Shown: positions 10,067-31,545 of the stretch, piece by piece
Layout of the letters: each line of letters opens with the position of its first letter
Position numbering within the stretch: position 1 is the first letter of the stretch
NCBI GenBank assembly: GCA_902802105.1
Contig: CADCKR010000035.1
Coordinates: 1 to 35,848 of the forward strand
Source of the DNA: an uncultured Ruminococcus sp.
Lineage (GTDB): Bacteria; Bacillota; Clostridia; Oscillospirales; Acutalibacteraceae
Direction of reading: 5' to 3'
Length of the DNA: 35,848 bases
Notes under the pieces: model-generated
The model's input: only the letters and a program-made list of their open reading frames with translations
Told to the model about the DNA's origin: nothing
Databases searched by the model: none
Translations under genes and position numbers: made by a program

Positions 10067-10172
10067 ACAGAAAATGATAAAAATCGGACAGCTTTAGGAA
10101 TCGGTGCTTTTTGCTTTTGCTTGCTGCAGTCAGTAAAAAATAAAGCATTGAATATGATCCGGAGGGTTGAAA

Positions 10173-10892
10173 ATGGATAAGAGAGCGTTTGAAAGAGAAC
10201 TCAGATCGCAGCTTTACGGCATTCCTTATGATAAAAAAGAAATGTATATCGGCGGATATAACAACATCATAGACGGTATGATAAGCAGAGGCATGACAGA
10301 GGAGCAGGCGGTCGCTTCGATGGGCGATCCGGCTGTGCTGGCCGCAAAAATACGCAGGGCAAACGGCAGCAACATGAGCGATGATAATTATTCACAAAGC
10401 AGCCGTGGCAATGATGCGTCATCAGACGGTTATGCGGACGATAGGGCAGGTCAGGGCGGAAGCTATAATAATACGGCGTCGGACGGTTATACCTACAGCC
10501 CGGCAAACTATGGCGATGGTTTCGACAGCAATAACAGCAGTACACAGCCGGAATCAGTTACAGGTACGGTGAGAGATCCGAACGGAGGCTACCGCTATAG
10601 CGCTTCGTCAGGCTCATCATCGGATGTAAAAATGCTGAGAATCATAATCATCATTATTCTTTGCTTTATGTTTATGCCGGCGCTAATAGGAATTTATATT
10701 GCGGCGGTGTGCGTTTTTATAGGCGGTGCGGCGGCAGTGTGCATAGGGGTGCCTGTTTCCTTGGGATTTGGTCCCAAGGGAGTGTTCATCTTGGGTGTGG
10801 GTCTGCTGCTTATGGGGATATCCATTCTTATGATGATGGGACTTAACAGGCTGATAAAGCTTATAACAGGTCATTACAGGCTGATAAAATAA
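10173..10892 (+). CDS. DUF1700-family membrane protein
   Basis: 239 aa. The N-terminal 65 residues match the DUF1700/HAAS layout (MDKRAFERELRSQL, then EMYIGGYNNIIDGM, then MTEEQAVASMGDPAVLAAKI). A Ser/Asn/Gly/Tyr-rich linker spans about 70-150. Three hydrophobic helices follow (IIIIIILCFMFMPALIGIYI, the AAVCVFIGGAAAV segment and FILGVGLLLMGISILMMMG). Start 10173 has GGAGG 8 bases upstream; the in-frame TTG at 10167 overlaps that site. DUF1700 proteins usually pair with DUF4097 proteins, as here. The PadR regulator that often begins such operons is not present. Confidence 0.85.
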   Translation: MDKRAFERELRSQLYGIPYDKKEMYIGGYNNIIDGMISRGMTEEQAVASMGDPAVLAAKIRRANGSNMSDDNYSQSSRGNDASSDGYADDRAGQGGSYNNTASDGYTYSPANYGDGFDSNNSSTQPESVTGTVRDPNGGYRYSASSGSSSDVKMLRIIIIIILCFMFMPALIGIYIAAVCVFIGGAAAVCIGVPVSLGFGPKGVFILGVGLLLMGISILMMMGLNRLIKLITGHYRLIK

Positions 10893-10916
10893 AAATACTC
10901 ACAGGGAGGAAGTAAA

Positions 10917-11591
10917 ATGAAAACCGTTACTAAAGTCGGTCTGATAGTGTCGTTATCTATGATAGTGGCAGGAATAAGCCTGTGCGTGATCCCGGTGGCG
11001 ATGTCGGGCGGAAATATGGTGGATTTTTTTAATGACAAAAGAGAAAAGCGTGATGTAAGCGTTGATAAGCCCTACAAATACGTTACGGTAAATGCACCGA
11101 TGGACAACGTAGAGCTTGATTTTTCGGTTAATAACAATGAATCTTATGTTGAGCTTTATGACAGCGACAGATACAAATTTGATGTTTATGTTGACGATGA
11201 AACACTGTACATAGGTATGGAAGAACAGAATATGTCCATAACCGGCTTTATAAACGGCGGTATATCGCCAAGGAAGATAACTGTCCATCTTGTGGGCGGC
11301 GAATATAAATTAGTAAACGTAAATACCGGCATCGGCAGTTTGGATATAAAAGGCAATATGTATATAGAAGAGCTTCATGTAAATACCGGCATCGGCGATG
11401 TTGACATATCCAAGGATACGCTTTTAGGCAAGGTGTATATCAAAACCGGCATAGGCAGCGTAACCCTTCCGAAAGCAAGCGATGCAGTACAGATAAATAC
11501 AGGGATAGGCAATGTACACACTCCTGCAATAAAGGACAAAAGCGGAAGTGTAAATATTGATACGGGTATCGGCAGCGTAAACGTACACTGA
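10917..11591 (+). CDS. DUF4097-type adhesin-like beta-repeat protein
   Basis: 224 aa. One N-terminal membrane helix (VGLIVSLSMIVAGISLCVIP) anchors an extracytoplasmic domain. From about residue 130 it carries five short repeats, each centred on TGIG (NVNTGIGSLDI, HVNTGIGDVDI, YIKTGIGSVTL, QINTGIGNVHT, NIDTGIGSVNV), which should stack as a beta-solenoid. This is the DUF4097 pattern. It lies 24 bp after the DUF1700 gene, with GGGAGG upstream, and is followed by a terminator. Envelope role inferred from the family; no specific function known. Confidence 0.88.
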   Translation: MKTVTKVGLIVSLSMIVAGISLCVIPVAMSGGNMVDFFNDKREKRDVSVDKPYKYVTVNAPMDNVELDFSVNNNESYVELYDSDRYKFDVYVDDETLYIGMEEQNMSITGFINGGISPRKITVHLVGGEYKLVNVNTGIGSLDIKGNMYIEELHVNTGIGDVDISKDTLLGKVYIKTGIGSVTLPKASDAVQINTGIGNVHTPAIKDKSGSVNIDTGIGSVNVH

Positions 11592-11601
11592 CAAACAAAA
11601 G

Positions 11602-11637
11602 AGCACGACAGACAATTAAGGCCTGCCGTGCTTTTTT
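11602..11637. terminator. Terminator between DUF4097 gene and nadC
   Basis: AGCACGACAG pairs with CTGCCGTGCT (one mismatch), loop of 11, followed by TTTTTT on the plus strand and preceded by AAAA, so it may serve both convergent units. Confidence 0.85.
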
Positions 11638-11664
11638 ATGTTCATGCCAATGCTGACTAATACT

Positions 11665-12501
11665 TTATTTGATATACATTGAAATGTCAAACGCCTTGAC
11701 CGAATGTGTGAGCGCACCTACCGAAATGATGTCAACGCCGCTTTCGGCGACTGCGCGCAGAGTTTCGTCTGTAATGCCGCCCGATGCTTCAAGCACAGCG
11801 CGTCCGGCGGTTATCTCAACAGCCTGCTTCATAAGCTCCGGGCTCATGTTGTCAAGCATGATTATGTCTGCCTTTGCGTCAAGCGCTTCACGAAGCTCAT
11901 CAAGATCGCGTGTTTCTACCTCTATCTTTGTCATGTGGCCAAGCTTTTTGCGCAGCTCGGTTATTGCCTTGGTTATGCCGCCTGCTGCATCTATGTGGTT
12001 ATCCTTCAACATTGCCGCATCAGAAAGATTGAAGCGGTGGTTCTTGGCGCCGCCTGTCGTAACAGCGTATTTTTGCAGGGCGCGAAGTCCGGGAAGTGTC
12101 TTGCGTGTGTCGGCAATAGAGGCTTTTGTGCCTTCAACTATCTTTACATAACGGTTAGCGGCAGTAGCGATGCCGCTCATGTGCTGTATCAGGTTAAGGG
12201 CGGTGCGCTCGCCTTTGAGGAGCGCCCGTGTCTTTCCGCTGAGGGTAAGTATGATATCGCCCTTTTTCACAGTGTCGCCGTCCTTTTTGAGTATCTCGTA
12301 TTTCAGGGTGTCGTCAAGAAGCTCGAACACTCTGAGGGCGGCCTCAACACCGCACACAATGCCGTCGGCCTTTGAGGTAAAGTTGCCGTCACTCTGCTGG
12401 CTTTCCGGAATGAGGTAGTCAGTGGTAACGTCACAGTAATTTATATCTTCAAGCAGAGCCGTTTTGATAAGCTCGTCAAGATAGAATTTATTCAGTATCA
12501 T
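11665..12501 (-). CDS. nadC: Nicotinate-nucleotide pyrophosphorylase (carboxylating)
   Basis: Converts quinolinate and PRPP to nicotinate mononucleotide, CO2 and PPi. The QPRTase signature is clear: ADTRKTLPGLRALQKYAV, then GGAKNHRFNLSDAAMLKDNH, the barrel segment KIEVETRDLDELREAL and the C-terminal LEASGGI and VDIISVGALTHS phosphate-binding loops. 278 aa is the normal length. AAGGAGG lies 10-11 bases before ATG. It follows nadB by 80 bp on the same strand. Confidence 0.97.
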   Translation of the reverse strand: MILNKFYLDELIKTALLEDINYCDVTTDYLIPESQQSDGNFTSKADGIVCGVEAALRVFELLDDTLKYEILKKDGDTVKKGDIILTLSGKTRALLKGERTALNLIQHMSGIATAANRYVKIVEGTKASIADTRKTLPGLRALQKYAVTTGGAKNHRFNLSDAAMLKDNHIDAAGGITKAITELRKKLGHMTKIEVETRDLDELREALDAKADIIMLDNMSPELMKQAVEITAGRAVLEASGGITDETLRAVAESGVDIISVGALTHSVKAFDISMYIK

Positions 12502-12581
12502 TTATATATGTTCCTCCTTAAATCATACAAAACGGATTCAGGACGCATTGTCCCGGCCGCCGCAGGCTGAATGACAGACCG

Positions 12582-14057
12582 TTATTTCTCGTCATCTTTT
12601 CTCAGCACTTCTTCGAGAACGATGCAGGCGACAGTGGCAAGACTGCGGGCTTCAACAAAATTGTGGTCTGTTTCATACTCGCCGCCGGTGAGGTCTGTAA
12701 GTATTTCCTTGGCGCGTTTAAGGCTTTCGGGTATCAGCTCAGGCTTGGGAATGACGAAGTATGTTTCCTGCATAAGCCTGCGTATCTCTGTACGGAAGCC
12801 GTGAGGCATCGTTTTGCCGCTGAGATCCTCGTGCTCGGCAAAGTTGCCGAAGGATGATCTTTCCTCATTCTGAAGTCTTGCGGTTATATCGTTTGCGGCT
12901 CTGCGCGAGAATACGAGAGCTTCAAGCAGTGAGTTGCTTGCAAGACGGTTTGCGCCGTGTACGCCCGTGTGTGAGCATTCACCGGCCGCATACAGTCTGT
13001 CAACAGTCGTGCGGGCATAAAGGTCAACGTCTATGCCGCCCATGAGGTAATGCTGACAGGGGAATACGGGTATCCACTGCTTGGTTATGTCTATATTTTC
13101 TTCAAGGCACTTTTCGTATATCATCGGGAAACGCTTCCTGACAAATTCCGGATCCTTGTGGGTTATGTCGAGATAAAACTTCTCGTTGCCCTTTGCCATT
13201 GATTCAAGCATTATCGCATTGGAAACAACGTCACGCGGAGCAAGCTCTCCTCTTTCGTCATACTTGAATGCGAAGCGTTCACCGTCACAGTTAAGCAATA
13301 CTGCGCCTTCTCCGCGCACAGCCTCACTTATAAGGAACCTTTCACGGTCGTTTTCGGCGGCGAATGCTGTCGGGTGGAACTGTATCCAGCTGAGGTGCTT
13401 TATTCGTGCGCCGAGCATGAATGCAAGGGTTATGCCGTCACCGGTAGCGATAGCAGAGTTGGTAGTATACTGATACACTCTGCCGATGCCGCCTGACGCA
13501 AGAATACAGTAACGGGCAGCTATCACACGTGAGGTACCGTCTGAGAGCAGAAGTCCTGCATAAAAGCCCTTTTCGTTCCTGTCAAGCTTGTATAGCATTG
13601 TGTTGTCCAGAATTTCGATATTCTTATGTGTGCGCACCTTGTCAATGAGCACATCGACGATAGCGCGTCCTGTTGAATCCTTGTGATGGACTATGCGGTG
13701 GCGTGAATGACCTGCTTCAAGCGTCATCTGGAGCTTGCCGCTTTCGTCAAGGTCGAAAGCGACGCCCATTTCTTTAAGTCTGAGCACGTCCGAAGGTCCC
13801 TCAGAGACAAGCACCTCTATAGCTTCCAATTTGTTTTTATATTTGCCTGCTATAAGTGTATCTGCGATGTGCAGCTTGAAGTTATCGTTGCTCTTGTCGA
13901 GTACAGCAGCCACGCCGCCCTGAGCAAGTGATGAATTTGAAAGGGTGAGCTCTCTTTTGGAGATGAGCAGCACGCTGACATTTTCAGGAAACTGCAGTGC
14001 GGCATAAAGCCCTGCCGCTCCCGAACCGACAATAAGAACGTCATATTCTTTTTTCAT
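12582..14057 (-). CDS. nadB: L-aspartate oxidase
   Basis: FAD enzyme that oxidises L-aspartate to iminoaspartate, the first step of de novo NAD synthesis. The FAD dinucleotide fold is at the N terminus (VLIVGSGAAGLYAAL), followed by SNSSLAQGGVAAV and the active-site stretch GHSRHRIVHHKDSTGRAI. The C-terminal FAD contact LYAAGECSHTGVHGANRLAS and SLLEALVFSRRAA are also present. 491 aa is somewhat short at the helical C terminus but complete. It is first in a nadB-nadC unit. No nadA (quinolinate synthase) lies in the window, so that gene must be elsewhere. Confidence 0.97.
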   Translation of the reverse strand: MKKEYDVLIVGSGAAGLYAALQFPENVSVLLISKRELTLSNSSLAQGGVAAVLDKSNDNFKLHIADTLIAGKYKNKLEAIEVLVSEGPSDVLRLKEMGVAFDLDESGKLQMTLEAGHSRHRIVHHKDSTGRAIVDVLIDKVRTHKNIEILDNTMLYKLDRNEKGFYAGLLLSDGTSRVIAARYCILASGGIGRVYQYTTNSAIATGDGITLAFMLGARIKHLSWIQFHPTAFAAENDRERFLISEAVRGEGAVLLNCDGERFAFKYDERGELAPRDVVSNAIMLESMAKGNEKFYLDITHKDPEFVRKRFPMIYEKCLEENIDITKQWIPVFPCQHYLMGGIDVDLYARTTVDRLYAAGECSHTGVHGANRLASNSLLEALVFSRRAANDITARLQNEERSSFGNFAEHEDLSGKTMPHGFRTEIRRLMQETYFVIPKPELIPESLKRAKEILTDLTGGEYETDHNFVEARSLATVACIVLEEVLRKDDEK

Positions 14058-14268: not shown

Positions 14269-14370
14269 CGGCGCTTATGATAAGCTTCATGCGGACGGTC
14301 AGCAGAGGGGATATCGGCTTTGTACACATCAAGTTGCAATATAAATTTTCAAAAAAGTTAATAAAAACTA

Positions 14371-14399
14371 TTGACAAAATACAAATGAAGTGGTATAAT
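14371..14399 (+). promoter_or_regulatory. Strong sigma-A promoter of a largely non-coding transcript
   Basis: TTGACA (14371-14376), 17-bp spacer, TATAAT (14394-14399), both perfect, in an AT-rich setting. No gene longer than 45 codons follows for 1.1 kb. Confidence 0.92.
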
Positions 14400-14405
14400 C
14401 TTATC

Positions 14406-14536
14406 AAGATAAAGAAAGAGCAAAGCAAAGTACCTTAGAGTATAGCTCGACAAACCGGATCGTGTGGTGCTTGTGCGAAACGCTGAAAGGCTTCTCTGAG
14501 TATTGCACATCAGTAAACGGTTGGCTCTTTTTTTGC
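14406..14536 (+). ncRNA. Candidate structured RNA at the start of the transcript
   Basis: The first bases of the predicted transcript, AAAGAAAGAGC (14411-14421), pair with GCTCTTTTTTT (14524-14534), closing a domain of about 120 nt. Inside it AACCG (14453-14457) pairs with CGGTT (14518-14522) and GTGC (14467-14470) with GCAC (14505-14508), giving a rod-like fold. The U-tract at its 3' side could end a short RNA. It could be a small RNA with 6S-like topology, or a leader acting on the 45-codon ORF behind it. I cannot match it to a known family. Confidence 0.35.
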
Positions 14537-14564
14537 TCTAATCCACGAAGGGAGGTATGCTCCG

Positions 14565-14702
14565 ATGGGCGAATCAGAACCAGTTAGTCAGACTTTAGTT
14601 ACACCTGTTGGTGTGACCTCTTCAACAAAGATGGGACAGACAAAGAACAGATTGTTTTTGCAGGTTTTGTGCTTATTCATCTTCACATTGATGGAGCTCT
14701 GA
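14565..14702 (+). CDS. 45-residue small protein with hydrophobic C terminus
   Basis: ATG at 14565 has GGGAGG 9 bases upstream and opens a 45-codon frame. The first 28 residues are polar (MGESEPVSQTLVTPVGVTSS, then TKMGQTKNR) and the last 16 are hydrophobic (LFLQVLCLFIFTLMEL), as in a tail-anchored peptide. It lies 28 nt after the candidate RNA domain. The good ribosome binding site supports translation; there is no family I recognise. A membrane-active small protein or a regulatory leader peptide are both possible. Confidence 0.45.
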   Translation: MGESEPVSQTLVTPVGVTSSTKMGQTKNRLFLQVLCLFIFTLMEL

Positions 14703-15151
14703 TTTTGCACTGCTTCAATAATAGCTATTTATGCTGTGAGTTCGTATAGCTCCCGGAATTGTATGGAGAGTCCGGAAATGAAGGCCGCGCTGCCGATCTC
14801 ATTACAACATCCTCCTGGGTAGGCAGAGTGCCTGACATTAAAACTCACAATTTAATATAGGGCATCTTTCCGGTGCCGGAACCGCTGACACACGGGGTTT
14901 GTTTCGCAGAAGAGCGGAAAATGGTGTCTGAGAGGCTGAACTAAATAGTTTCCTCCGTTGCATTACGAAAGCTTCACAATATATTGATGATCGTTTGGTA
15001 TATTGTGGTTCGGCATTGCGGCCGATCTTATAAGCGGAGCATTAAGGGCTTTTGGCCCGAGGCAGTCTGGTGAAAATATCTCCTGCCGTATGCGTTTTGT
15101 ATTGTGATAGGATTATAACTGAAAGCAGTTTTCTATATAAAATTCAAGATA

Positions 15152-15296
15152 AGGACTGAGTCCCATGTAATATTCCGTTGTGTATGGTTCGTTTCTATGA
15201 GCCGATCGGTTATTGAATTTATTATCAGGAATGAGTCCCATGAGAATTTAGAATTTATCTTATTTTGATATTTTGTTTATAGGAATGAATCCAATG
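15152..15296 (+). repeat. Three copies of AGGAnTGARTCCnATG
   Basis: Copies at 15152-15167, 15227-15242 and 15281-15296 match at 13 of 16 or more positions. Starts are spaced 75 and 54 bp, and the sequence between is AT-rich and unrelated. Each can fold into a very short GGA/TCC hairpin. They sit in the 3' part of the non-coding transcript. Confidence 0.85.
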
Positions 15297-15434
15297 AGAG
15301 TTTGATGTTATTTCATTACCATTAAACAAATGGGTATCAGCCTGCCGCAGCTGTACTAAAGCGGGATTCCGCATTTGAGTTTCGGTGCGGGCAGATATAT
15401 AAAAATGCTTATATCAGTTTCTTTCTCAAGAAGT

Positions 15435-15467
15435 AAAAGCTCCGACAGCGTTTGTCGGAGCTTTTTT
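15435..15467 (+). terminator. Strong intrinsic terminator of the non-coding transcript
   Basis: AAGCTCCGACA-GCGTT-TGTCGGAGCTT followed by TTTT; an 11-bp perfect stem. Confidence 0.95.
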
Positions 15468-15557
15468 AAGTGTGTCGGGTATGATATGATACTAATACCT
15501 AACAAAAAGCAGACAATTTTTGCGGTCTGATTTCCGCAATACTTTGTTGTCGTTCTC

Positions 15558-15625
15558 GGAATCCGTCAGGATTCCTGCGTCCTCCGCTGGAAACAGGGGA
15601 GAAAGCGGAGCAGCAAAAATATGGT
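15558..15625. other. Palindrome-rich intergenic stretch
   Basis: Between the two facing terminators lie GGAATCC-GTCA-GGATTCC (15558-15575) and a CTCCGCT/AGCGGAG stem-loop starting near 15581. It looks like a dispersed intergenic repeat, but no second copy is in this window. Confidence 0.4.
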
Positions 15626-15635
15626 AAGGCTATTA

Positions 15636-15667
15636 AAAAAGCGGATACGCTGTCGTACCCGCTTTTT
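15636..15667 (-). terminator. Terminator of the tandem lipoprotein unit
   Basis: AAAAAGCGG.TACG-CTGT-CGTA.CCGCTTTTT; on the minus strand the stem is followed by TTTTTT. It lies about 20 bp past the lipoprotein stop. Confidence 0.9.
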
Positions 15668-15685
15668 GTGTGTGTAAAAATATTA

Positions 15686-16102
15686 TTATTTTCTTACAAG
15701 ACCGATTATGCCTGTTTCAGGTACGAATCTGCCGTCCTTATATGTATATTTGATAACGCTTCCTGCACCGACTGTTGCAGCACCTGTCGGGTCAGTGAGT
15801 GTCAGAACGCCGTCCGCAAGCTTCCATGAGCCCTCTTCCTTAGATTCCTTTTCTCCGATCTTGGCGGTGATGATAACCTTGCCGCCTTCCTTGAATTCAA
15901 GGACTGCATTCATTGATTCAACTATCGGCTTATACATTTCTGCCTGCTGATAGTTATATTTTTCTCCGGAGGTCTCTACTGCAAATGTCCATGTTCCGAC
16001 AACATTTACATTATCCTTGTTTTCACCGCTGCATCCTGCTGTAGAGAAAAGCATTAACGCTGCCATCACAAACAACAGGACAGTTGTTACGAGCTTCTTC
16101 AT
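15686..16102 (-). CDS. Small lipoprotein with lipocalin-like (DUF5640-type) domain, second of a tandem pair
   Basis: 138 aa. Signal peptide MKKLVTTVLLFVMAALMLF with lipobox STAGC. The mature part has the pattern VVGTWTF, LEFKEGGKVIITAKIGEKE, GSWKLADGVLTLTDPTG and ends in a short strand, typical of small lipocalin-like DUF5640 domains of Clostridia lipoproteins. It is paralogous to the gene just upstream and shares the VGTW start with a domain in the 864-aa protein. AAGGAG lies 9 bases before the ATG. Ligand unknown. Confidence 0.85.
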   Translation of the reverse strand: MKKLVTTVLLFVMAALMLFSTAGCSGENKDNVNVVGTWTFAVETSGEKYNYQQAEMYKPIVESMNAVLEFKEGGKVIITAKIGEKESKEEGSWKLADGVLTLTDPTGAATVGAGSVIKYTYKDGRFVPETGIIGLVRK

Positions 16103-16159: not shown

Positions 16160-16597
16160 TTACTGCTTTACAAAGGACATATACTCAGCGCCTACGATAA
16201 CGAGCTTGCCGTCTACTAACTTCAACTCGCTGGGTGAAGAATCTCCTGATGAAGAAGCGGTCTGGTCAAGTGAGCCGCTGGGATCTGTGAGCTTTACGGT
16301 AGTACCGTCGAATGTGTATGTGCCTTCAGCACTGCTGCTCTGACCCATAGCTGATGCGTTGATAGAAACTTTGCCGTTGTCTGAGAAAGTGAGTGACATA
16401 TCCATAGCGCCCATGAGAGCTTCATACATTGAAGCCTGAGCCTTCTGCTCTTCCGGAAGCTTGCTTGAATCAAACTGCATCTTCCATGTACCAACGATAG
16501 AAGGCGCACCTGATCCGCTGCCTCCGCAGGCTGTTACTGCGAGTACCATAAACACTGCCATGAATACTACGAGCATTGACTTACATACTTTTTTCAT
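16160..16597 (-). CDS. Small lipoprotein with lipocalin-like (DUF5640-type) domain, first of a tandem pair
   Basis: 145 aa. Signal peptide with lipobox VTAC at about residue 24. The mature part reads SIVGTWKMQFD, LTFSDNGKVSINASAMGQ, GTYTFDGTTVKLTDPSG and ends LVIVGAEYMSFVKQ, the same order of strands as the downstream paralogue. A Ser-rich insert (LDQTASSSGDSSPS) sits before the last strands. AGAGGAG precedes the ATG, and a promoter lies 142-171 bp upstream. The two genes are 57 bp apart and form an operon ended by a terminator. Confidence 0.85.
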   Translation of the reverse strand: MKKVCKSMLVVFMAVFMVLAVTACGGSGSGAPSIVGTWKMQFDSSKLPEEQKAQASMYEALMGAMDMSLTFSDNGKVSINASAMGQSSSAEGTYTFDGTTVKLTDPSGSLDQTASSSGDSSPSELKLVDGKLVIVGAEYMSFVKQ

Positions 16598-22439: not shown

Positions 22440-22751
22440 TTGGAAGATATGATAGCTAAAATTGTCGAAATGGACAAAAAAGCCCGCGATATGACGGCTC
22501 AGGCTCAGCAGAAAAAGCTTGATTTTGAGAATGAGGTAATAGCCAAGCGTGAAAATATGAAAAATGATTACCTCGAAAGAGCTAAAAAAAGAGTCGCAAT
22601 GAACCGCCAGACCGCTCAGAAAAAAGCTGACGCAGCTCTCAGACAAATCGAGGAGCGTGACAGCGCAGTTATCCAAAGACTTGAAAGCGTATATGCCCGC
22701 GACGGCGATAAATGGGTAGATGAAATAGTTGCCCGTGTGGTCGGGGAATAA
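22440..22751 (+). CDS. V-type ATPase subunit H/G-like coiled-coil protein
   Basis: 103 aa, almost wholly helical and charged (KKARDMTAQAQQKKLDFENE, then a KRVAMNRQTAQKKADAAL stretch). This is the pattern of the V/A-ATPase peripheral-stalk subunit H/G that pairs with subunit E. It is the first gene of the operon. TTG at 22440 is the likely start because AAGGGGGTG lies about 9 bases upstream; the next ATG (22449) is too far from it. A TTG start may keep its synthesis low relative to others. Confidence 0.8.
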   Translation: MEDMIAKIVEMDKKARDMTAQAQQKKLDFENEVIAKRENMKNDYLERAKKRVAMNRQTAQKKADAALRQIEERDSAVIQRLESVYARDGDKWVDEIVARVVGE

Positions 22752-22870
22752 CGCTGTTTAGCCGTTTGCGAAGGCAGCAGGCGGAACTTGTGCACCGTCA
22801 CATCATAAAAAAGCGGTCATCACGCTTTGCTGCATAATTATACGGCGCATGAAAGGAGCTGTGAAAGAAT

Positions 22871-23905
22871 ATGTCTTCAAAATCCTGTAATGCCGTCCTT
22901 GCCAAATCCCGCGCAATGTACGGGAAATGCCTGAAGGAACAGGATTACAGACAGCTTGTGGATTGCAGGAGCGTTTCAGAGGTGGCATCATACCTCAAAG
23001 CCCATACCTGCTATTCAAGGGCACTGACCGGACTGAACGAAACAGAAACTCACCGAGGTCAGCTCGAGCCTCTGCTGCGTCAGGAGGTCTATCTTGATAT
23101 TTTCGCTCTTTCAAGATATACATCGGACAACGCTTTGGCTGTGACTGATTTTGTGACGTCAAAGCTTGATATCGAACAGATAGTCAGGTTCCTTATGATG
23201 CTGAATATCGGCAAACCCGAGGAGTACGCACTGTCAATGCCGCTTTCCCTTGACAAGTTCACTCCCATCAGCTTCAGAAGCCTCGCTGCTGTAAGATCCT
23301 ATGATGATCTGCTCAGTGTGGTCCAGCGCACAAAATACTATCAGGTGCTGCTGCCGTTCAGACCAAAAGAAGGCGAAGCACTAAAGATAGCAGAGATCGA
23401 GATCGCGCTCAACAACAAAAACTACAGCATGGCTATGGAGGCGATCCCGAAAATGAAAAACAAAGCCGAACAAAAAGAACTGAAAGACCTTTTCAACTCT
23501 GTGTTTGACTTTGAAAACCTTGAGCGTATACTCAGGCTCAAAAAATATCACGCTCTCGACAGCGAATCGGTCAAATCAATGCTGATCCCCTATGGCAAGC
23601 TTTCACGCAAGGTCATAGAAGAGCTTTGCAATGCCGATGACTTCCGCGACGTGTATGAGCTTGCGCGCTCTACCTACCTCGGAGGGCCGCTCTCCAAGCT
23701 GCAATACTACGATAACACGCAGATATCCTACGCGCTTATCAATTCGTACTGCAGGCATCATCTGAGACTGTCCCCGAACCCTACGATCGTTATGATCTCA
23801 TACATCTATCTCAAACAGATAGAGGTGCGCAACATTATCAACCTTATCGAGGCGACCCGCTACGGATTGTCTCCTGATGAGAAGCAAAAGCTTCCCGTAA
23901 GATAA
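22871..23905 (+). CDS. ntpC: V-type ATPase subunit C (socket for the central stalk)
   Basis: 344 aa, all-helical, matching the V/A-ATPase C/d family: the N-terminal SKSCNAVLAKSRAMYGKCLK, a middle RSLAAVRSYDDLLSVVQRTK and the C-terminal ISYIYLKQIEVRNIINLIEA, which is the family's most recognisable segment. It joins the rotating D/F stalk to the K ring. AAAGGAG lies 11 bases before the ATG. It precedes subunit I, which differs from the common order with I and K first. Confidence 0.93.
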   Translation: MSSKSCNAVLAKSRAMYGKCLKEQDYRQLVDCRSVSEVASYLKAHTCYSRALTGLNETETHRGQLEPLLRQEVYLDIFALSRYTSDNALAVTDFVTSKLDIEQIVRFLMMLNIGKPEEYALSMPLSLDKFTPISFRSLAAVRSYDDLLSVVQRTKYYQVLLPFRPKEGEALKIAEIEIALNNKNYSMAMEAIPKMKNKAEQKELKDLFNSVFDFENLERILRLKKYHALDSESVKSMLIPYGKLSRKVIEELCNADDFRDVYELARSTYLGGPLSKLQYYDNTQISYALINSYCRHHLRLSPNPTIVMISYIYLKQIEVRNIINLIEATRYGLSPDEKQKLPVR

Positions 23906-23924
23906 AAACAAAGGAGGTGATACT

Positions 23925-25865
23925 TTGTCTGTAAAACCGGTCAAGGCAATCAGTATCATCGGCTTGATGCCTGAGCTTGACGAGGTCGTAAGGATATGCG
24001 GCGATTCCTGTGCGTTTCAGCCGGACGATGCAATGTCCTTCTACTCCGACACAAAGAATTTTGTGCCGCTGAATGACAAGAACCCTTACACCCAGCCGAT
24101 ACAGCAGCTCAGAAACGCCTGTGAGCTTGCGGGCTTTACACTTGATTATGCGGATAACGCAGGCTCCGCCCTCACAGAAAGCGATGTACTTGATTATGTA
24201 AAGACATTCGTTAACAAAACGGAGGATATGATAAGCAAAAAGCTGTTTATCGAACAGGAGCTTGATGAATGCAGGCGTTCCATTGAACAGGTGGAGCACT
24301 TTACAGGCTGCGATATCGACTTTTCGGAGATATCAGGCTGCAAATATATCACGCCTAACTTCGGCAGACTGCCAAAGGAAAGCTATGAAAAGCTTTCGGA
24401 GTATTCATCGAACCACTATGCGATATTCTTCCCCTTTACAAATGACGATACGCATTACTGGGGCGCATACTTCACTATCCCCGAACAGAAGGACGAGATT
24501 GACAGGATATTTTCATCCCTGTTCTTTGAGTCGCTGGAGGTTCCTGCGATCGCAGGAAAGCCTGACGACTACCTCAGAACATTACAGGCAAAGCAGAGCG
24601 AGCTTCAGGAAAAGCTCAATGAGACAAAAAGCGTAAACGATTCTTTCTGGAAGGATGAAAAGCAGAAATGTCAGGAATGCTACACCAAGCTTGAAGAGCT
24701 TGATTCCTACAACGAGATAAAGCGCTTTGCCTACAGATATCACAAAAGCTTTATACTTGCAGGCTGGATACCCGCCGAAAAGGAAAAGGAGCTTACCGAA
24801 AAGCTTGACAGCATTAAAAGCGTGGAATATTCAGTGACAGATTCAAAGGATATCCGCAGTGTCAAGCCTCCTGTCATAATGAAAAACCCGCCTTTTATAA
24901 GACGGTATGAATTCTATGTAAAAATGTACGGTCTGCCGTGTAACAATGAGGTAGACCCCACAGCATTTGTAGCCTTTACCTACACACTGTTTTTCGGCAT
25001 CATGTTCGGTGATGTCGGACAGGGATTTATAGTCGCTCTTGTGGGCGCGCTTATGTATAAGTTCAAAAAAATGGAGATCGGGCGCATACTTGTTCCCTGC
25101 GGGATAATGGGTATGGTCTTTGGCTTCCTCTACGGCTCGGTCTTTGGATTTGAGGAGCTTCTCACGCCGGTACACCAGAAGCTTTTCGGCACACCGGGCA
25201 AGCTTATCGAGGTGATGAAGCCCGAAAGCATAAACCTGATAATCTACGGTTCTGTCGCCATAGGCATTGTTACAATAGCCTTAGCAATGATAGTGAATAT
25301 CGTTTCCTCGCTGAAGCGGCGCGACTATGAGAGCGCCTTCTTCGGAGCAAACGGAGTCGCGGGCTTTGTGTTCTATATTTCGCTTGTGGCAGGTCTTGTA
25401 TGTCAGATGCTTTTAGGCATTGAAGTCATGAACATCGCCTATATAATCTGCCTTATCGTTATCCCGCTGATACTCATGTTTCTCAGGGAGCCGCTCGGCA
25501 AGCTGTGCAAGAAAAAAAAGAACTGGCAGCCCGGCAGCTGGGGCGAATACTGCACACAGAGCTTCTTTGAGCTGTTTGAAATGTGCCTGAGCTATGTTAC
25601 CAACACCATGTCTTTCCTGCGTGTCGGCGCATACATTCTTGTTCATGCAGGTATGATGCTCGTGGTGTTTACCCTTGCAGAGATGGTCGGCGGCGTTGTC
25701 GGATATACGATTATACTCATAATCGGCAACGGTATCGTAATGGCGCTTGAAGCGCTGCTTGTAGCGATCCAGGTGCTCAGACTTGATTACTATGAGATAT
25801 TCAGCCGCTTCTACATCGGTGAAGGCCGTCCATTCGTGCCTGTTGTGGCAAGAAGATCAAAGTAA
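23925..25865 (+). CDS. ntpI: V-type ATPase subunit I (membrane stator)
   Basis: 646 aa. The cytoplasmic N-terminal half (1-330) has two coiled-coil arms (ISKKLFIEQELDECRRSIEQ) with a globular FFP/WGAYFTIP domain. The C-terminal half has seven or eight membrane helices starting at TAFVAFTYTLFFGIMFGDVG. The ion-path arginine is R566 in TMSFLRVGAY. The start is TTG at 23925 with AAAGGAGGTGATACT directly upstream; no in-frame ATG lies near. It forms the ion half-channels next to subunit K. Confidence 0.96.
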   Translation: MSVKPVKAISIIGLMPELDEVVRICGDSCAFQPDDAMSFYSDTKNFVPLNDKNPYTQPIQQLRNACELAGFTLDYADNAGSALTESDVLDYVKTFVNKTEDMISKKLFIEQELDECRRSIEQVEHFTGCDIDFSEISGCKYITPNFGRLPKESYEKLSEYSSNHYAIFFPFTNDDTHYWGAYFTIPEQKDEIDRIFSSLFFESLEVPAIAGKPDDYLRTLQAKQSELQEKLNETKSVNDSFWKDEKQKCQECYTKLEELDSYNEIKRFAYRYHKSFILAGWIPAEKEKELTEKLDSIKSVEYSVTDSKDIRSVKPPVIMKNPPFIRRYEFYVKMYGLPCNNEVDPTAFVAFTYTLFFGIMFGDVGQGFIVALVGALMYKFKKMEIGRILVPCGIMGMVFGFLYGSVFGFEELLTPVHQKLFGTPGKLIEVMKPESINLIIYGSVAIGIVTIALAMIVNIVSSLKRRDYESAFFGANGVAGFVFYISLVAGLVCQMLLGIEVMNIAYIICLIVIPLILMFLREPLGKLCKKKKNWQPGSWGEYCTQSFFELFEMCLSYVTNTMSFLRVGAYILVHAGMMLVVFTLAEMVGGVVGYTIILIIGNGIVMALEALLVAIQVLRLDYYEIFSRFYIGEGRPFVPVVARRSK

Positions 25866-25897
25866 GATCAAGATTGATTTATCGGAGGTTCAATACT

Positions 25898-26356
25898 ATG
25901 GTTATTTTGGATTATATTTTGTTGGCAGTACCCGTTTTATTCCTTGTCGGCTCTGTTGCTTATGCGTATAAAACCGTTACAACAGGCAGACATACAAGAA
26001 AAAGAGCAGTCCTTTCCCAGATAGCCTCATTTGCGGCAGTCGGCGCATTTTGCCTGACAGCCGCAGCTGTCACAGCATTTGCAGCCGGCGGTGATGCGGC
26101 CGCAGCAGCAGAAGCAGCCGCAGCTGCTCCCAAGGACGGTATGGCCTTTGGTATGGCAATGCTCGGCGCAGCCCTGGCAACAGGCATTTCGGGCATCGGC
26201 GGCGGCATCGCTGTAGGCAACGCAGCGCCTGCGGCTATCGGCGCAACAAGCGAGGATCCCAAGGCTTTTGGTAAAGCGCTTATCTTCGTTGCGCTCGGTG
26301 AAGGTGTTGCCCTTTACGGACTTCTCGTTTCCATACTCATCATCAGCAAAGTCTGA
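25898..26356 (+). CDS. ntpK: V-type ATPase subunit K (ion-carrying ring subunit)
   Basis: 152 aa with four membrane helices. The first hairpin (LDYILLAVPVLFLVGSVAYA and SFAAVGAFCLTAAAVTAFAA) is plain, while the second is the conserved glycine-rich one (LATGISGIGGGIAVG, then FVALGEGVALYGLLVSILII). The ion-binding carboxylate is E135. An Ala-rich loop (AAAAAEAAAAAP) joins the hairpins. In E. hirae NtpK, a known Na+ type, E is followed by Thr; here it is followed by Gly. Start 25898 has TCGGAGG upstream. Confidence 0.95.
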   Translation: MVILDYILLAVPVLFLVGSVAYAYKTVTTGRHTRKRAVLSQIASFAAVGAFCLTAAAVTAFAAGGDAAAAAEAAAAAPKDGMAFGMAMLGAALATGISGIGGGIAVGNAAPAAIGATSEDPKAFGKALIFVALGEGVALYGLLVSILIISKV

Positions 26357-26411
26357 TCTATGACCTCTCTTTGCAATTATTCAGCCAATACACATTTATT
26401 AACTTTATTTG

Positions 26412-26450
26412 TTCTGCTTTCCTGACAGTTCCGCTGCCGGAATAGCAGAA
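26412..26450 (+). other. Intercistronic hairpin between subunits K and F
   Basis: TTCTGCT pairs with AGCAGAA and encloses an inner TTCCG/CGGAA stem. No U-tract follows. Likely an mRNA processing or stability element separating the high-copy K cistron from the rest. Confidence 0.6.
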
Positions 26451-26489
26451 AGCGGCGATACCGACCGACTGACAATGAGGGGATAATCA

Positions 26490-26798
26490 ATGAAGTTTTA
26501 TCTTATAAGCGATAACGTGGATACGCTGATGGGAATGCATCTTGCCGGCATAGACGGCGTTGTCGTGCATGAGGACAGCGAGGTAAGAGAAGCTCTTGAA
26601 AAGGCTATGGATATGGAGGACGTTGCGGTTATCCTTATGACAGAAAGACTTGTAAGCCTTTGTCCTGAGCTTGTGTATGACCTTAAGCTCAAAAGAAAAC
26701 AGCCGCTGATAGTTGAGATCCCCGACAGACACGGCAGCGGCCGTGCCAAGGATTCGATCACACGCTATGTAAGAGAAGCTATCGGCGTTAAAATTTGA
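26490..26798 (+). CDS. ntpG: V-type ATPase subunit F (central stalk)
   Basis: 102 aa, Rossmann-like: MKFYLISDNVDTLMGMHLAG, the VAVILMTERLVSLCPELV segment and a C-terminal helix (SGRAKDSITRYVREAIGVKI). This matches the V/A-ATPase F subunit, which binds D in the rotor. GAGGGG lies 6-7 bases before ATG. Spacing of over 120 bp on both sides is wide for this operon. The symbol follows the E. hirae naming. Confidence 0.93.
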   Translation: MKFYLISDNVDTLMGMHLAGIDGVVVHEDSEVREALEKAMDMEDVAVILMTERLVSLCPELVYDLKLKRKQPLIVEIPDRHGSGRAKDSITRYVREAIGVKI

Positions 26799-26803
26799 TC
26801 ATA

Positions 26804-26855
26804 CCTGTTCGCCGGCAGGAAAAAGACCGCTAAGAGGTCTTGCCCGGCGGACAGG
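26804..26855 (+). other. Long intercistronic hairpin between subunits F and E
   Basis: CCTGT.CGCCGG pairs with CCGGCG.ACAGG, and inside it AAGACC-N7-GGTCTT forms a second stem; about 52 nt in all. No U-tract, so a processing or stability structure is more likely than a terminator. Confidence 0.75.
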
Positions 26856-26920
26856 ATATTCTGATGCGCGGAGATGATCCGCATAAAGCATAACATACTA
26901 TACTGTACGGAGGTGATATC

Positions 26921-27523
26921 ATGCCCGATACGGTCAGCAAAACAGATAATTTTCTTAAAGCAATAGAAAAATATGCAGAAGAACAGCGCGGAAAGCTCAG
27001 GACTGAGGCCGAGGAATTTCAGGAAAGAGAGCTGAACAATGCCGAGGAAGAAGGCTTGAAGGAAGCTTATGACCTTGTGCAGAAGGAAATGGCGGATATC
27101 AACAATGAGATATCCGGCAATCTCTCGAAGGCTGAGGCCGACAGCCGCAAAAGAATATTTGAGCGGCGCAAAGAGATCGAAAACGAGGTTTTTGAAAAAG
27201 CAAGAAAAAAGCTCGTTGAATTCACCGATACAGACAAATACAGCGCAATGCTCTCTGAGAGCGCAAAAAATATCAGCAGCGTGCTGAAAAATGAGGATGT
27301 TGTCCTCTATGTCAGGGAGCGTGACCTCAGATTTACAGATTCCCTGAAGGCTTCTTTCGGAAGAAAATGCGAGGTCGCTGCGTCTGACAGCATAAAAATA
27401 GGCGGTATCACGGGATTGAGCCGGAGCATGGGACTTGTTGCTGATGAAACGCTTGACACAAAGCTTGCTTATCAGCGTGAATGGTTCTATGAGCATTCGG
27501 GTCTGACCGTTGTTGAAAAATGA
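26921..27523 (+). CDS. ntpE: V-type ATPase subunit E (peripheral stalk)
   Basis: 200 aa. The N-terminal 110 residues are a charged helix (EKYAEEQRGKLRTEAEEFQE), and the C-terminal globular part has the family's IKIGGITGLSRSMGLVADET and LDTKLAYQREW. It pairs with the H/G subunit to hold the A3B3 head. GGAGGTGATATC directly precedes the ATG. Confidence 0.94.
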   Translation: MPDTVSKTDNFLKAIEKYAEEQRGKLRTEAEEFQERELNNAEEEGLKEAYDLVQKEMADINNEISGNLSKAEADSRKRIFERRKEIENEVFEKARKKLVEFTDTDKYSAMLSESAKNISSVLKNEDVVLYVRERDLRFTDSLKASFGRKCEVAASDSIKIGGITGLSRSMGLVADETLDTKLAYQREWFYEHSGLTVVEK

Positions 27524-27547
27524 TCGGAGCCGTCATCCCGCACTGTT

Positions 27548-27570
27548 CATCAGGGGCGTGCCCTCTGATG
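27548..27570 (+). other. Intercistronic hairpin between subunits E and A
   Basis: CATCAGGGGC pairs with GCCC.CTGATG with one bulged base; no U-tract. Confidence 0.55.
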
Positions 27571-27617
27571 CAGGTGCGCTGAGGACTGAGGCTCTCATAA
27601 GAGGAATGATTTGATAA

Positions 27618-29375
27618 ATGGCAGCTAAAGACGTTATTTATGGAATAAACGGTCCTGTTGTTACCGTCAGGAATACCCGGAGCTTTTCCATGATGGAAAT
27701 GGTCTATGTCGGCGAGGAGCGTCTTGTGGGCGAGATCATCGGCATAAACGACAAATTCACTACGGTCCAGGTTTATGAAGAAACAACGGGACTTAGACCC
27801 GGCGACCCGATAACCGGTACAGGCGCTCCGATGAACGTCCTTCTCGGTCCGGGCATAATCGACAATATATTCGACGGCATCGAGCGTCCGCTCAAAGCAA
27901 TCGAGCAGACAAGCGGCTCCTTTATTTCAAGGGGCGCGGCTGTGTCGTCTCTCGATACCGATAAGGAATGGGATGTTACTCTCAGGGTAAAGAAGGGCGA
28001 CAAGCTCAAGGGCGGTATGATATACGCTGTCTGCCCTGAAACGGCAATAATCGAGCACCGTTTTCTTGTGCCGCCGGATATCAGCGGCACAGTGATAAAG
28101 ACTGCTCCCAACGGCAAATACAAGCTTATGGATACTGTCGTTACCGTAAAGGATGACAGCGGCAATGAACACGAGCTTACTCTCTGCCAGAAATGGCCCA
28201 TCAGAAGCGCACGTCCGTGTGAAAGCAGACTGCCGGCGACTGTCCCGCTCATTACCGGACAGCGTGTCATAGATACGATGTTCCCGATATCAAAGGGCGG
28301 CACTGCGGCAATACCCGGCGGCTTCGGCACAGGCAAGACAATGACTCAGCACCAGCTTGCAAAGTGGTGCGATGCCGATATAATCGTTTACGTAGGCTGC
28401 GGCGAACGCGGCAACGAGATGAGCCAGGTGCTTGATGAGTTCTCCGAGCTTATCGACCCGAAATCGGGCAGACCGATGACCGACAGGACAGTGCTTATCG
28501 CAAATACCTCAAATATGCCTGTTGCGGCGCGTGAAGCGTCTATCTATACAGGCCTTACCCTTGCGGAATATTACCGCGACATGGGCTATCATGTGGCTAT
28601 CATGGCGGATTCGACCTCACGATGGGCAGAGGCTCTGCGTGAGATATCCGGACGTCTTGAGGAGATGCCGGCCGAAGAAGGCTTTCCGGCATATCTTCCC
28701 TCACGTCTTTCAGAGTTCTATGAGAGAGCAGGACGTGTAAACACTCTTTGCGGTACAGAAGGATCTGTTACGATAATCGGCGCAGTATCTCCGCAGGGTT
28801 CGGATTTCTCCGAGCCTGTTACGCAGAACACCAAGCGCTTTACACGCTGCTTCTGGGCTCTTGACAAATCGCTTGCATACGCCCGTCACTATCCCGCTAT
28901 CAACTGGATGAACAGCTACAGCGAGTATTTTACCGATCTTGACCCTTGGTTCCGCAAGAACCTTGGCTCTGATTTCATCAAATACAGAAACAAGATAACG
29001 GCTATCCTTCACGAGGAAAGCTCACTTATGGAGATAGTCAAGCTCATCGGTTCGGATGTTCTTCCTGACGATCAGAAGCTCGTCATAGAAACAGCCAAGG
29101 CGATCCGTGTAGGTTTCCTGCAGCAGAACGCTTTCCACGCAGACGACACCTTCGTTCCGCTTGAAAAGCAGAAGCTTATGATGAAGGCTATACTTCATAT
29201 GTATTCACGCTCACGCAAGATAATCGCAGCAGCCATTCCTATCTCACGCATTATGGAGCTTGGACTGTTTGAGCGTCTTGCAAAAATGAAGTACGACATA
29301 CCCAACTCAAAGCCTGAGCTATTCGATACCCTTATCTCAGACATAGACTCCGCTCTGGCTTCACTTGCTCCCTGA
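27618..29375 (+). CDS. ntpA: V-type ATPase catalytic subunit A
   Basis: 585 aa. The N-terminal beta barrel starts [17 protein letters not shown]; the non-homologous insert typical of A subunits is at about 115-185. The P-loop GGFGTGKT covers 234-241 with K240 for ATP phosphates. Also visible are [19 protein letters not shown] and [18 protein letters not shown]. It hydrolyses or makes ATP in the A3B3 head. It lies 94 bp after subunit E with AGAGGA upstream. Confidence 0.98.
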
Positions 29376-29407
29376 GCGGTAAATTGTATGAATTGGAAGT
29401 GAAATGT

Positions 29408-30856
29408 ATGATTCTTGATTATGTCGGTGTAAAAGAGATAAACGGTTCCCTTATCGTGCTTGACGGCGTTGAGAATGCCTCCTTTGAGGAAATGGTCGAT
29501 ATCCGGCTTGAAAACGGCTCTTACCGTCACGGCAGGATAGTTCAGATAGACGGCAAAAGGATAGTCGTGCAGGTATTCGAGGGCACAAAGTCCATCTCAC
29601 TTGACAACACCCGCACACGTCTTATGGCAAGACCTATGGAGCTTGCACTTTCGCCGGAGATCATGGGACGTGTTTTCAGCGGCGCCGGCAGACCTATTGA
29701 CGGTCTGGGAGAAATTTACCCTGTAAAAAGGGCAAACGTAAACGGTACCCCTATGAATCCGGTCTCACGTGTTTATCCGAGAAACTATATAAACACCGGT
29801 ATCTCTACCATTGACACGCTTATGACACTTATCCGCGGTCAGAAGCTGCCCATCTTTTCGGGCTCCGGCATGAAGCACAACGAGCTTGCCGTTCAGATCG
29901 TAAGGCAGGCAAAGATCGCAGATGCTGACGGCGAAAACAAGTTCGGCATCGTCTTTGCGGCTATGGGCGTTAAAAACGATGTTGCCGATTACTTCCGCAG
30001 AAGCTTTGACGAAAGCGGAGTTCTTTCACGAGTGGTAATGTTCCTCAACCTTGCAAACGATCCTATCATCGAGAGGACACTTACCCCGAGATGCGCCCTG
30101 ACGGCCGCAGAGTATCTTGCGTTTGAATGCAATATGCACGTTCTTGTTATTATGACGGATATGACCTCTTACGCCGAGGCTCTGCGTGAGTTCTCGTCCT
30201 CAAAGGGTGAGATACCGGGCAGAAAGGGCTTCCCCGGCTATCTTTATTCAGACCTTGCATCACTTTATGAACGTGCGGGAATGATAAAGGGCAGCAGCGG
30301 CTCAGTAACGCAGATACCGATACTGACAATGCCCAATGATGACATTACTCACCCTGTGCCCGACCTGACAGGCTACATCACCGAAGGTCAGATAGTTCTT
30401 GACAGGCAGCTTGAGGGTGCCGGAATTTATCCTCCTGTATCTGTACTGCCTTCGCTTTCACGTCTTATGAAGGACGGCATCGGTGCAGGCTACACAAGGG
30501 CTGACCATCAGCCTCTTGCAAATCAGCTTTTTGCATCCTATGCAAGAGTGCAGGACGCAAGATCACTTGCATCGGTAATCGGTGAGGAGGAGCTTTCTCC
30601 TGTAGACAAAAAGTATATGGAATTCGGCAAGCTGTTTGAGCAGTATTTTGTAAATCAGGGCTTCCACGATAACAGGACAGTTGAGCAGAGCCTTGATCTT
30701 GGCTGGAAGCTGCTTTCAACTCTGCCGCGTACAGAGCTTGACCGTGTTGACGATGCACTGCTTGACAAGTATTACATTGAGGACAAGGACAGCCTGAATT
30801 TCCGTACCTTTGCATCCGATAACAGCGCAGACAGCGGCGATGACGATGACGCCTGA
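29408..30856 (+). CDS. ntpB: V-type ATPase subunit B (non-catalytic)
   Basis: 482 aa. Family motifs: [20 protein letters not shown], the site lacking a true P-loop ([16 protein letters not shown]), [20 protein letters not shown] and [20 protein letters not shown]. The start at ATG 29408 is set by GGAAGTG 6 bases upstream; an in-frame TTG at 29384 has no site. The tail is acidic ([10 protein letters not shown]). The stop overlaps the start of a 25-bp repeat. Confidence 0.97.
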
Positions 30857-30880
30857 TGAGCAGAACAAAGCGAGTGTAAA
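30856..30880 (+). repeat. 25-bp direct repeat, copy 2
   Basis: Identical to 19655-19679. It fills half of the gap between subunits B and D and overlaps the last base of the B stop codon. Confidence 0.85.
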
Positions 30881-30912
30881 AAGGACAAGTATTACAGCAA
30901 GGAGTGATATAA

Positions 30913-31545
30913 ATGGCTGTTCAGGCAGTGCCGACCAAAGGAAACCTTATCGCCTCGAAGAAGTCGCTTTCGCTTGCGAGGACGGGCTATGAACTGCTTG
31001 ACAAAAAGCGCAATATTCTCGTAAGAGAGATGATGACACTTATCGACAAAGCCACTGAGATACAGTCCAGAATAGACCTTACCTACAGCAAGGCTTATCT
31101 TGCACTGCAAAGAGCCAACATCACTATGGGCTATATAGACGCGATAGCGAAGTCGGTGCCGGAGGATAATTCATTGCAGCTCAGCTACCGCAGTGTCATG
31201 GGCGTTGAGATACCCATTGTGACGATCGACGAAAGCGAAAACGAAAGATCTCTGTTCTATGGTCTTGGCGTGACAAACTCCGCCTTTGACGAAGCATACG
31301 TATGCTTCAGAGAGGTAAAGCGGCTCACCGCACACCTGGCGGAGATCGAAAACAGTGTTTACCGTCTTGCCGATTCTATAAAAAAGACTCAGAAGAGGGC
31401 AAACGCACTCAAAAATATTATGATACCAAAATTTGAAGAAACGGTGAAGTTTATTTCCGATGCCCTCGAAGAAAAGGAGAGGGAGGAATTTTCCCGCCTG
31501 AAGGTCATAAAAGCCCAGAAGTCGGGTGCTGATACTGATCTGTAG
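30913..31545 (+). CDS. ntpD: V-type ATPase subunit D (central shaft)
   Basis: 210 aa, two long helices with a central loop, matching the V/A-ATPase D family: the N-terminal PTKGNLIASKKSLSLARTGY ELLDKKRNILVRE helix and the C-terminal KKTQKRANALKNIMIPKFEE helix. The segment KRANAL.NIMIP is the family signature. It rotates within A3B3. AAGGAG lies 8 bases before ATG. Last gene of the operon; no clear terminator is visible after it. Confidence 0.96.
   Translation: MAVQAVPTKGNLIASKKSLSLARTGYELLDKKRNILVREMMTLIDKATEIQSRIDLTYSKAYLALQRANITMGYIDAIAKSVPEDNSLQLSYRSVMGVEIPIVTIDESENERSLFYGLGVTNSAFDEAYVCFREVKRLTAHLAEIENSVYRLADSIKKTQKRANALKNIMIPKFEETVKFISDALEEKEREEFSRLKVIKAQKSGADTDL

Follow-up and report, generated by a model that had tools for sequence, protein, structure and literature searches.

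A large structured RNA with a small open reading frame and start-stop mini-ORFs in a genus of uncultured Ruminococcus: a candidate for action through ribosomes

We have analyzed a DNA sequence of 35,848 nucleotides (the window) from an uncultured Ruminococcus sp. (contig CADCKR010000035.1 of NCBI assembly GCA_902802105.1), corresponding to contig C35 of a 2.0 Mb metagenome-assembled genome that is 89.5% complete. The comparisons below support the presence of a large structured RNA, single-copy in this genome, that would be independently transcribed. Judged by its sequence the RNA is not simply noncoding, in that it carries a small ORF with a coding signature together with start-stop mini-ORFs. 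We think it rather probable that this is a stand-alone, lineage-restricted RNA acting through ribosomes and not an ordinary mRNA. The promoter, the terminator, the structure, the conservation, the module statistics and the coding signature of the small ORF are shown below; ribosome binding, the level of expression and the physiological role are what we infer from these data.

A first-pass annotation of the window had described a perfect promoter and a terminator enclosing ~1,060 nt with almost no coding sequence, and had raised the idea of a large structured RNA. The first description was borne out, with ~1,060 nt lying between the two elements and ORFs that are short throughout. The second is supported by the conserved promoter, by the terminators, and by helices that covary well above both controls. 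The features are summarized in Table 1.

Table 1. Features of the RNA and its promoter, in window coordinates.
Feature	Position	Strand	Basis
Promoter, TTGACA-N17-TGG-TATAAT type, extended -10	14371..14399	+	12/12 match; 51/51 distinct loci
Large structured RNA	14405..15467	+	Model match in 58/64 genomes of the genus
5′ leader, probable hairpin, length most variable between species	14405..14541	+	Fold of the window copy; alignment by eye
5′ copy of the Shine-Dalgarno module, GGAGG...CTCC then R-ATG	14551..14563	+	GGAG/CTCC pairable in nearly every row
5′ ORF, 45 codons in the window	14565..14702	+	Longest ORF with a Shine-Dalgarno start between promoter and terminator
Long-range helix closing the 5′ domain, 14620-14628 + 14633-14637 with 14750-14754 + 14759-14768	14620..14768	+	14 pairs, 10 changed on both sides
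7-bp pairing 14736-14742/14842-14848, pseudoknot with the 14620-14768 helix	14736..14848	+	5/7 pairs with both-side changes; 85.5% of cells paired
Hairpin domain 14770-14773/14826-14829 + 14789-14794/14819-14824	14770..14829	+	9/10 pairs with both-side changes
Conserved single-stranded segment ACAATTTAATAT	14847..14858	+	8 invariant columns, 47 sequences
Central multibranched domain	14952..15112	+	31 pairs, 26 changed on both sides
3′ module 1, AGGACTGAGTCC-C-ATG-TAA, start directly followed by stop	15152..15170	+	AUG-stop in 45/48 loci
3′ module 2, AGGAATGAGTCC-C-ATG-AGA-ATT-TAG	15227..15251	+	Module repeat
3′ module 3, AGGAATGAATCC-A-ATG-AGA-GTT-TGA	15281..15305	+	Module repeat
Intrinsic terminator, 13-bp stem and T run	15435..15467	+	Inverted repeat; stem covaries in relatives

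A conserved transcription unit

The promoter is exact in the window, as first annotated, and TG precedes its -10 element. Promoter-like sites are not enriched in the window, with three found against 5.8 expected from shuffles. A chance promoter is ruled out by conservation rather than by enrichment: TTGAC(A/T) and TGN-TATAAT occur at the same place in all 51 distinct loci, separated by a spacer of 16 nt (46 loci) or 17 nt (five loci). These loci, which pool those found with a degenerate box pattern with earlier ones, were chosen via a box downstream, independently of the promoter. The sequence CA(A/G)G(A/T)T follows 5 nt past the -10 element in 49 of the 51, and the 5′ end of the RNA is likely to coincide with the conserved CAAGATAA (14405) or to lie directly behind it.

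At the other end, a perfect inverted repeat (15435-15447/15453-15465) leads into T. The terminator is thus present as first described, and its stem is 13 bp rather than 11 bp. A generic terminator scan omitted the 15435-15465 hairpin and reported another at 15520-15539. By the criteria of a strict script, 32 of 48 related transcripts, which are 817-1066 nt long, have a terminator hairpin, and 10 of 12 pairs in the terminator stem have changed on both sides.

Distribution and Rfam searches

A DNA-only search, in which short matches were also counted, gave a match in 35 of 60 related genomes, all in one genus. The degenerate box pattern found 49 loci in named genomes, whose titles are uncultured Ruminococcus, Ruminococcaceae, Clostridia, Clostridiales and in one case just "bacterium"; many are from rumen or rabbit-gut genomes. 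A covariance model of the 5′ core of the RNA (R1) matched 58 of the 64 genomes of the genus, including 25 of the 26 of high quality, 10/300 genomes of the family (in four genera) and 3/394 genomes of the order. L005 and L045 were dropped from the counts, the element or ORF being cut by a contig end.

The first-pass annotation could match the sequence to none of OLE, ROOL and GOLLD, and the Rfam search agrees: no family was found in the window at the gathering threshold. At E ≤ 5 over 14300-15700 there were seven weak matches, none of them ROOL, GOLLD or OLE and all below their own gathering scores. In 20 further loci no family overlapped the element at gathering, and 18 loci searched at E ≤ 1 gave none over it either. 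Across these gathering and looser searches, all that fell on the element were matches of chance level at the terminator. We also considered whether the element might be a hidden RNase P RNA, and rejected this given a normal class A RNA elsewhere in the genome (E = 2.1e-88).

Covariation of the structure

Base-pair covariation in homologues, suggested as a check when the element was first noted, proved to be far above controls. Scanning for pairs without folding recovered the terminator, a central hairpin of 13 bp and a number of long-range helices in which both sides have changed. In the central domain (47 sequences) 89.9% of cells are paired compared with 72.6% in shuffles, and the pairs with both-side changes number 26 against 18.8. 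The covariation score is 0.548, compared with 0.245 (sd 0.011) for shuffled alignments and no more than 0.179 when the partner is slid, and none of 500 shuffles reached any of these measures. The 5′ half (40 pairs, 47 sequences) has 92.6% of cells paired versus 85.8%, 26 pairs with both-side changes versus 13.7, and a score of 0.336 against 0.211 shuffled and at most 0.116 slid. The structures were derived from the sequences on which they were scored, which favours them over the slid versions, and the shuffles ignore relatedness; given the size of the effect a chance origin is unlikely.

Transcripts cut short (L058 and L063) were left out of the alignments, as were L057 from the central-domain alignment (A2), its domain being deleted, and L055 from A3, where it has a long insert. 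Five gappy rows were excluded in deriving the A2 structure and included in the A2 covariation counts. The fold of the whole window RNA alone was kept out of the structural evidence, there being no shuffle values above 1,000 nt.

The 5′ ORF

A box GGAGG...CC-N-ATG opens the ORF in all 50 usable loci. Its GGAG/CTCC stem hardly varies, so that covariation is neutral on the hairpin. In 42 of the 50 loci the ORF is a single frame of 24-31 codons starting MG(E/D)xEPV, and in 26 loci it has exactly 26 codons. It is frame-shifted in the other eight, which fall into three clades (45, 45, 45, 29, 29, 28, 23 and 23 codons). The window belongs to the 45-codon clade, and in its copy as in those of L053 and L054 the shift comes after about codon 13. 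With small hydrophobic type I toxins in mind the peptides were inspected by eye: the 45-codon window form has a hydrophobic end, and the form found in the 42 loci has none.

Several properties point to coding. Over 20 aligned codons the amino-acid similarity in frame 0 lies above all 500 column shuffles (z = 4.3), while frames 1 and 2 give no excess (z = 0.5 and -0.9); the codons were read in the frame of each block, and column shuffles lose the clustering of conserved sites. Variability peaks at the third codon position. The aligned stop position is shared by 41 of the 50 loci, as TAA (30), TGA (8) or TAG (3). A tree of 48 copies, built with the ORF columns excluded, requires at least 10 length changes, three of which shift the frame. 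At least seven of the 10 are multiples of three (chance 0.02 if one third is expected, a value that is not exact since the rows are related). Against coding, some third positions (in GGC and TTC) are invariant or nearly so, as RNA constraint would make them look, and the tree has three losses of the frame. The 5′ strand of the 14620-14768 helix overlaps the ORF, and because this stretch also pairs in a covarying helix it is under both coding and RNA constraint. Four peptides tested gave no match in Pfam.

The 3′ start-stop modules

The 45-codon ORF had been thought the only plausible one. It is indeed present, and there are three further AUGs at 15165, 15240 and 15294, each within a repeated start-and-stop module in which the AUG comes just after a Shine-Dalgarno sequence that may sit in a small hairpin. 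The hairpin-like RGGANTGANTCC-N-ATG occurs at least once in the 3′ half of all 48 copies that reach there, mostly twice and up to four times; the remaining three of the 51 copies are cut by contig ends before the 3′ modules. When RGGANTGANTCC was searched for with no requirement for ATG, ATG followed one base later in 80 of 81 cases, the 81st being cut by a contig end.

The first 3′ AUG is followed immediately by a stop in 45/48 loci (44 UAA, 1 UGA). Of the 50 later AUGs, 40 meet a stop within three sense codons, compared with 12 and 4 in the other two frames and with a mean of 13.2 (sd 3.0, highest 24) when the downstream bases were shuffled 2,000 times. After clustering at 70% identity the figure is 28 of 37, against 9.7 (sd 2.6, highest 19) in shuffles and 9 and 3 in the other frames; rows and repeat copies are related, and the module probabilities are therefore not exact. 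Stops in the clustered set are TAA (22), TGA (9) and TAG (6). Within the same transcripts a stop within three sense codons follows 85 of 98 module AUGs and 123 of 742 other AUGs. The peptides themselves differ (MRI, MVV, MPN, MGK and others), and all three stop codons are in use.

The module does not serve the window genome as a ribosome site in general: there are three exact matches, all inside the RNA, and one match with a single mismatch elsewhere, equal to what the reversed control gives. As a pattern across the order, the exact start-stop spelling was found in one of 394 genomes, that of the window; it missed G315 of the same genus, so this probe is insensitive. The start-stop design appears to be narrow or divergent outside the genus.

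Related RNAs in other lineages

Two further genera of the family have related RNAs. In the other genera the 5′ ORF keeps MG(D/E)xEPV, with 26, 26, 26 and 22 codons, and the 3′ modules of genera g241 and g194 read MA*, M*, MR*, MV* and MI*, the MI* copy having a weaker Shine-Dalgarno sequence.

A related RNA in one genus of another family is more weakly supported. One genome there was matched by R1 at E = 0.001 only, and its homology to the window RNA is not certain. This genome and two relatives nevertheless share the architecture of the window RNA, with the promoter followed by three to five modules of the form GAGGnnnnnnCC-R-ATGG, in which the stem of the Shine-Dalgarno hairpin is often not kept. 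All 12 modules in the three genomes have two to five sense codons after the AUG (MGDYK*, MGVIK*, MAS*, MDT* and others), two loose non-module matches (one each in L118 and L120) being excluded from the 12. Three more genomes of this same genus, g21 (L121, L122 and L123), share the promoter region. Behind Shine-Dalgarno-like sequences they carry GUG-UAC-UAA, in which GUG takes the place of AUG after a GGUGAGUCC-like element, and AUG-AUC-AUC-CAG-UUU-UAG. In L121 (1709, 1943), L122 and L123 GUG-UAC-UAA and the five-codon ORF lie directly before a hairpin, and the likeness to the window RNA is in the promoter. Runs of three to five putative mini-ORFs recur elsewhere in the order.

Genomic surroundings

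The flanks of the element are housekeeping genes, for example gpmI, tpiA, ssb and rpsF (names read off the sequences). A 6S RNA lies divergent to the RNA within roughly 1.2 kb in 16 of 20 and 15 of 18 loci (overlapping genome sets, with L044, L074 and L063 among them). As a separate 6S RNA stands beside the element in these loci, we rejected the idea that the element is itself a hidden 6S RNA. In many congeners a small DUF1292-like gene lies between the RNA and the 6S RNA, with gpmI/tpiA beyond. The window copy instead has nadB as its neighbour, and the genome it comes from, 89.5% complete, yielded no 6S RNA. Because the window copy adjoins nadB and most congeners have the 6S RNA and DUF1292-like gene, no single neighbour explains the RNA, and we rejected neighbouring genes as a guide to its function. 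A phage origin was likewise rejected, as the flanks are housekeeping genes and the box pattern was found in no viral contigs.

The nadC/nadB block lies upstream of the RNA in the window (10167-14057) and downstream in a near relative (L053); from these opposite sides it follows that either the RNA or the block has moved. Elsewhere in the window two similar lipoprotein-like small genes stand in tandem on the minus strand (15686-16102 and 16160-16597), put together on the strength of their sequence similarity, and translations examined by eye indicate a V-type ATPase gene cluster at 22440-31545.

Discussion

How might such an RNA work? A strong promoter would produce a folded RNA of 820-1,070 nt, to which ribosomes would be attracted by an initiation module present several times over, each time as a Shine-Dalgarno sequence within a weak hairpin, a single base and AUG. 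At the 5′ copy a peptide of ~26 codons would be made, and translating this ORF would open the 5′ domain, since its 3′ half lies in the long-range helix. Ribosomes at the 3′ copies would terminate after zero to three sense codons and then leave. Initiating ribosomes, with initiation and termination factors, might thereby be held away from mRNAs, or occupancy of the modules by ribosomes might switch the fold of the structured core. Acting on or reading out translation initiation is the most likely role, and among roles we prefer a decoy or sensor to stability because no gene follows the modules. The short ORFs could instead have been selected to prevent unwanted translation. More tentatively, and with rather more doubt than conviction, we suggest a new class of regulatory RNA: a highly expressed structured decoy or sensor that titrates or gauges initiation via an array of start-stop minigenes, found in several genera of one order, with independent arrays of 3-5 mini-ORFs in another family.

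Bacterial minigenes, or mini-ORFs, are exemplified by lambda bar. The 3′ modules share with them a good Shine-Dalgarno sequence and an AUG that is followed within very few codons by a stop, the 5′ ORF being longer. Minigenes of one to six codons, among them those of the LEE1, LEE4, ycbK and axe-txe leaders, are described as cis elements (PMC8708949) and are reported to act through ribosome occupancy. Known examples stand alone or in pairs ahead of a gene on an mRNA, or occur in a phage, whereas the window RNA has several identical modules in a stand-alone structured RNA. Action in cis on a downstream gene does not fit these modules, which occupy the final stretch ahead of the terminator with no gene between. 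Among the open-access papers listed in full-text searches we found no structured RNA with several start-stop ORFs, none with the same architecture, and none that brings minigenes and large ornate RNAs together.

CsrB and RsmZ are sponge RNAs in which a motif similar to a ribosome-binding site is repeated many times. By analogy with CsrB and CsrA, the repeated hairpins might bind a protein that recognizes ribosome-binding sites, with the AUG as part of the motif and the quick stops as mere insulation. In favour of this, an identical short motif is repeated within a structured RNA; the AUG at RGGANTGANTCC is never GUG or UUG in the genus (80/80), and early stops are what insulation predicts. CsrA itself is rejected as the partner, however, with PF02599 in none of the 64 genomes of the genus and a control that was positive in 3 of 14 named genomes. 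The motifs of the window RNA also differ from those of CsrB/RsmZ in carrying AUG and in-frame stops. Insulation leaves the ~26-codon 5′ ORF and its coding signature unexplained, and L121, L122 and L123 of g21 have GUG where the motif would have AUG. On balance we regard a protein sponge as unlikely.

RNAIII and SgrS are dual-function structured RNAs with one small ORF, and the window RNA might similarly have the 5′ peptide as its main product, the rest being a stabilizing 3′ region on which mini-ORF ribosomes block ribonucleases. The 5′ ORF has a coding signature and a conserved stop and is kept in other genera, which agrees with this, yet its frame is lost in 8 of 50 loci that have kept the RNA, the bulk of the conserved structure is downstream of the ORF, and the four peptides have no Pfam match. 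In contrast to RNAIII and SgrS, the window RNA has extra start-stop modules and no known base-pairing target. Protection of mRNAs in cis by ribosomes on minigenes has been reported (PMC8708949). Taken together, a dual-function RNA of this kind seems to us improbable.

ROOL, GOLLD and OLE are over 600 nt long, with complex covarying structure and a strong promoter, and ROOL and GOLLD have no known function (PMC12286853). The window RNA resembles them in all three features, and it could be an ornate scaffold or oligomer of this kind, homo-oligomers being a mark of these families, in which the invariant AUG modules are purely structural. It differs in giving no covariance-model match in Rfam and in carrying a small ORF and mini-ORFs, and enrichment of in-frame stops using all three stop codons is unexpected of a structural motif. 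The same paper describes ROOL and GOLLD from phages and prophages, often near tRNA islands, whereas the window RNA is not in phages: it has housekeeping flanks and no viral contig with the box pattern, and the window has no tRNA or tmRNA (L047 has two tRNAs near the element). We consider this reading very improbable. A decayed protein gene, misread intergenic sequence or other artefact might be suspected where ORFs are all short and the genomes metagenome-assembled, and can be practically discounted given covarying structure in 47-48 sequences, the element in 58/64 genomes, and relatives that carry the same RNA and no intact protein gene of which it would be a decayed copy.

A stand-alone RNA acting through ribosomes is thus the reading we prefer. 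If it is correct, the working parts of this large bacterial RNA would be sites at which ribosomes initiate without getting anywhere. Such an RNA would unite ornate RNAs of unknown function with minigenes, and would offer a direct test of whether cells buffer or sense their initiation capacity by RNA. Even without the part played by ribosomes, nearly all genomes of a gut and rumen genus contain a large structured RNA that Rfam 15 lacks.
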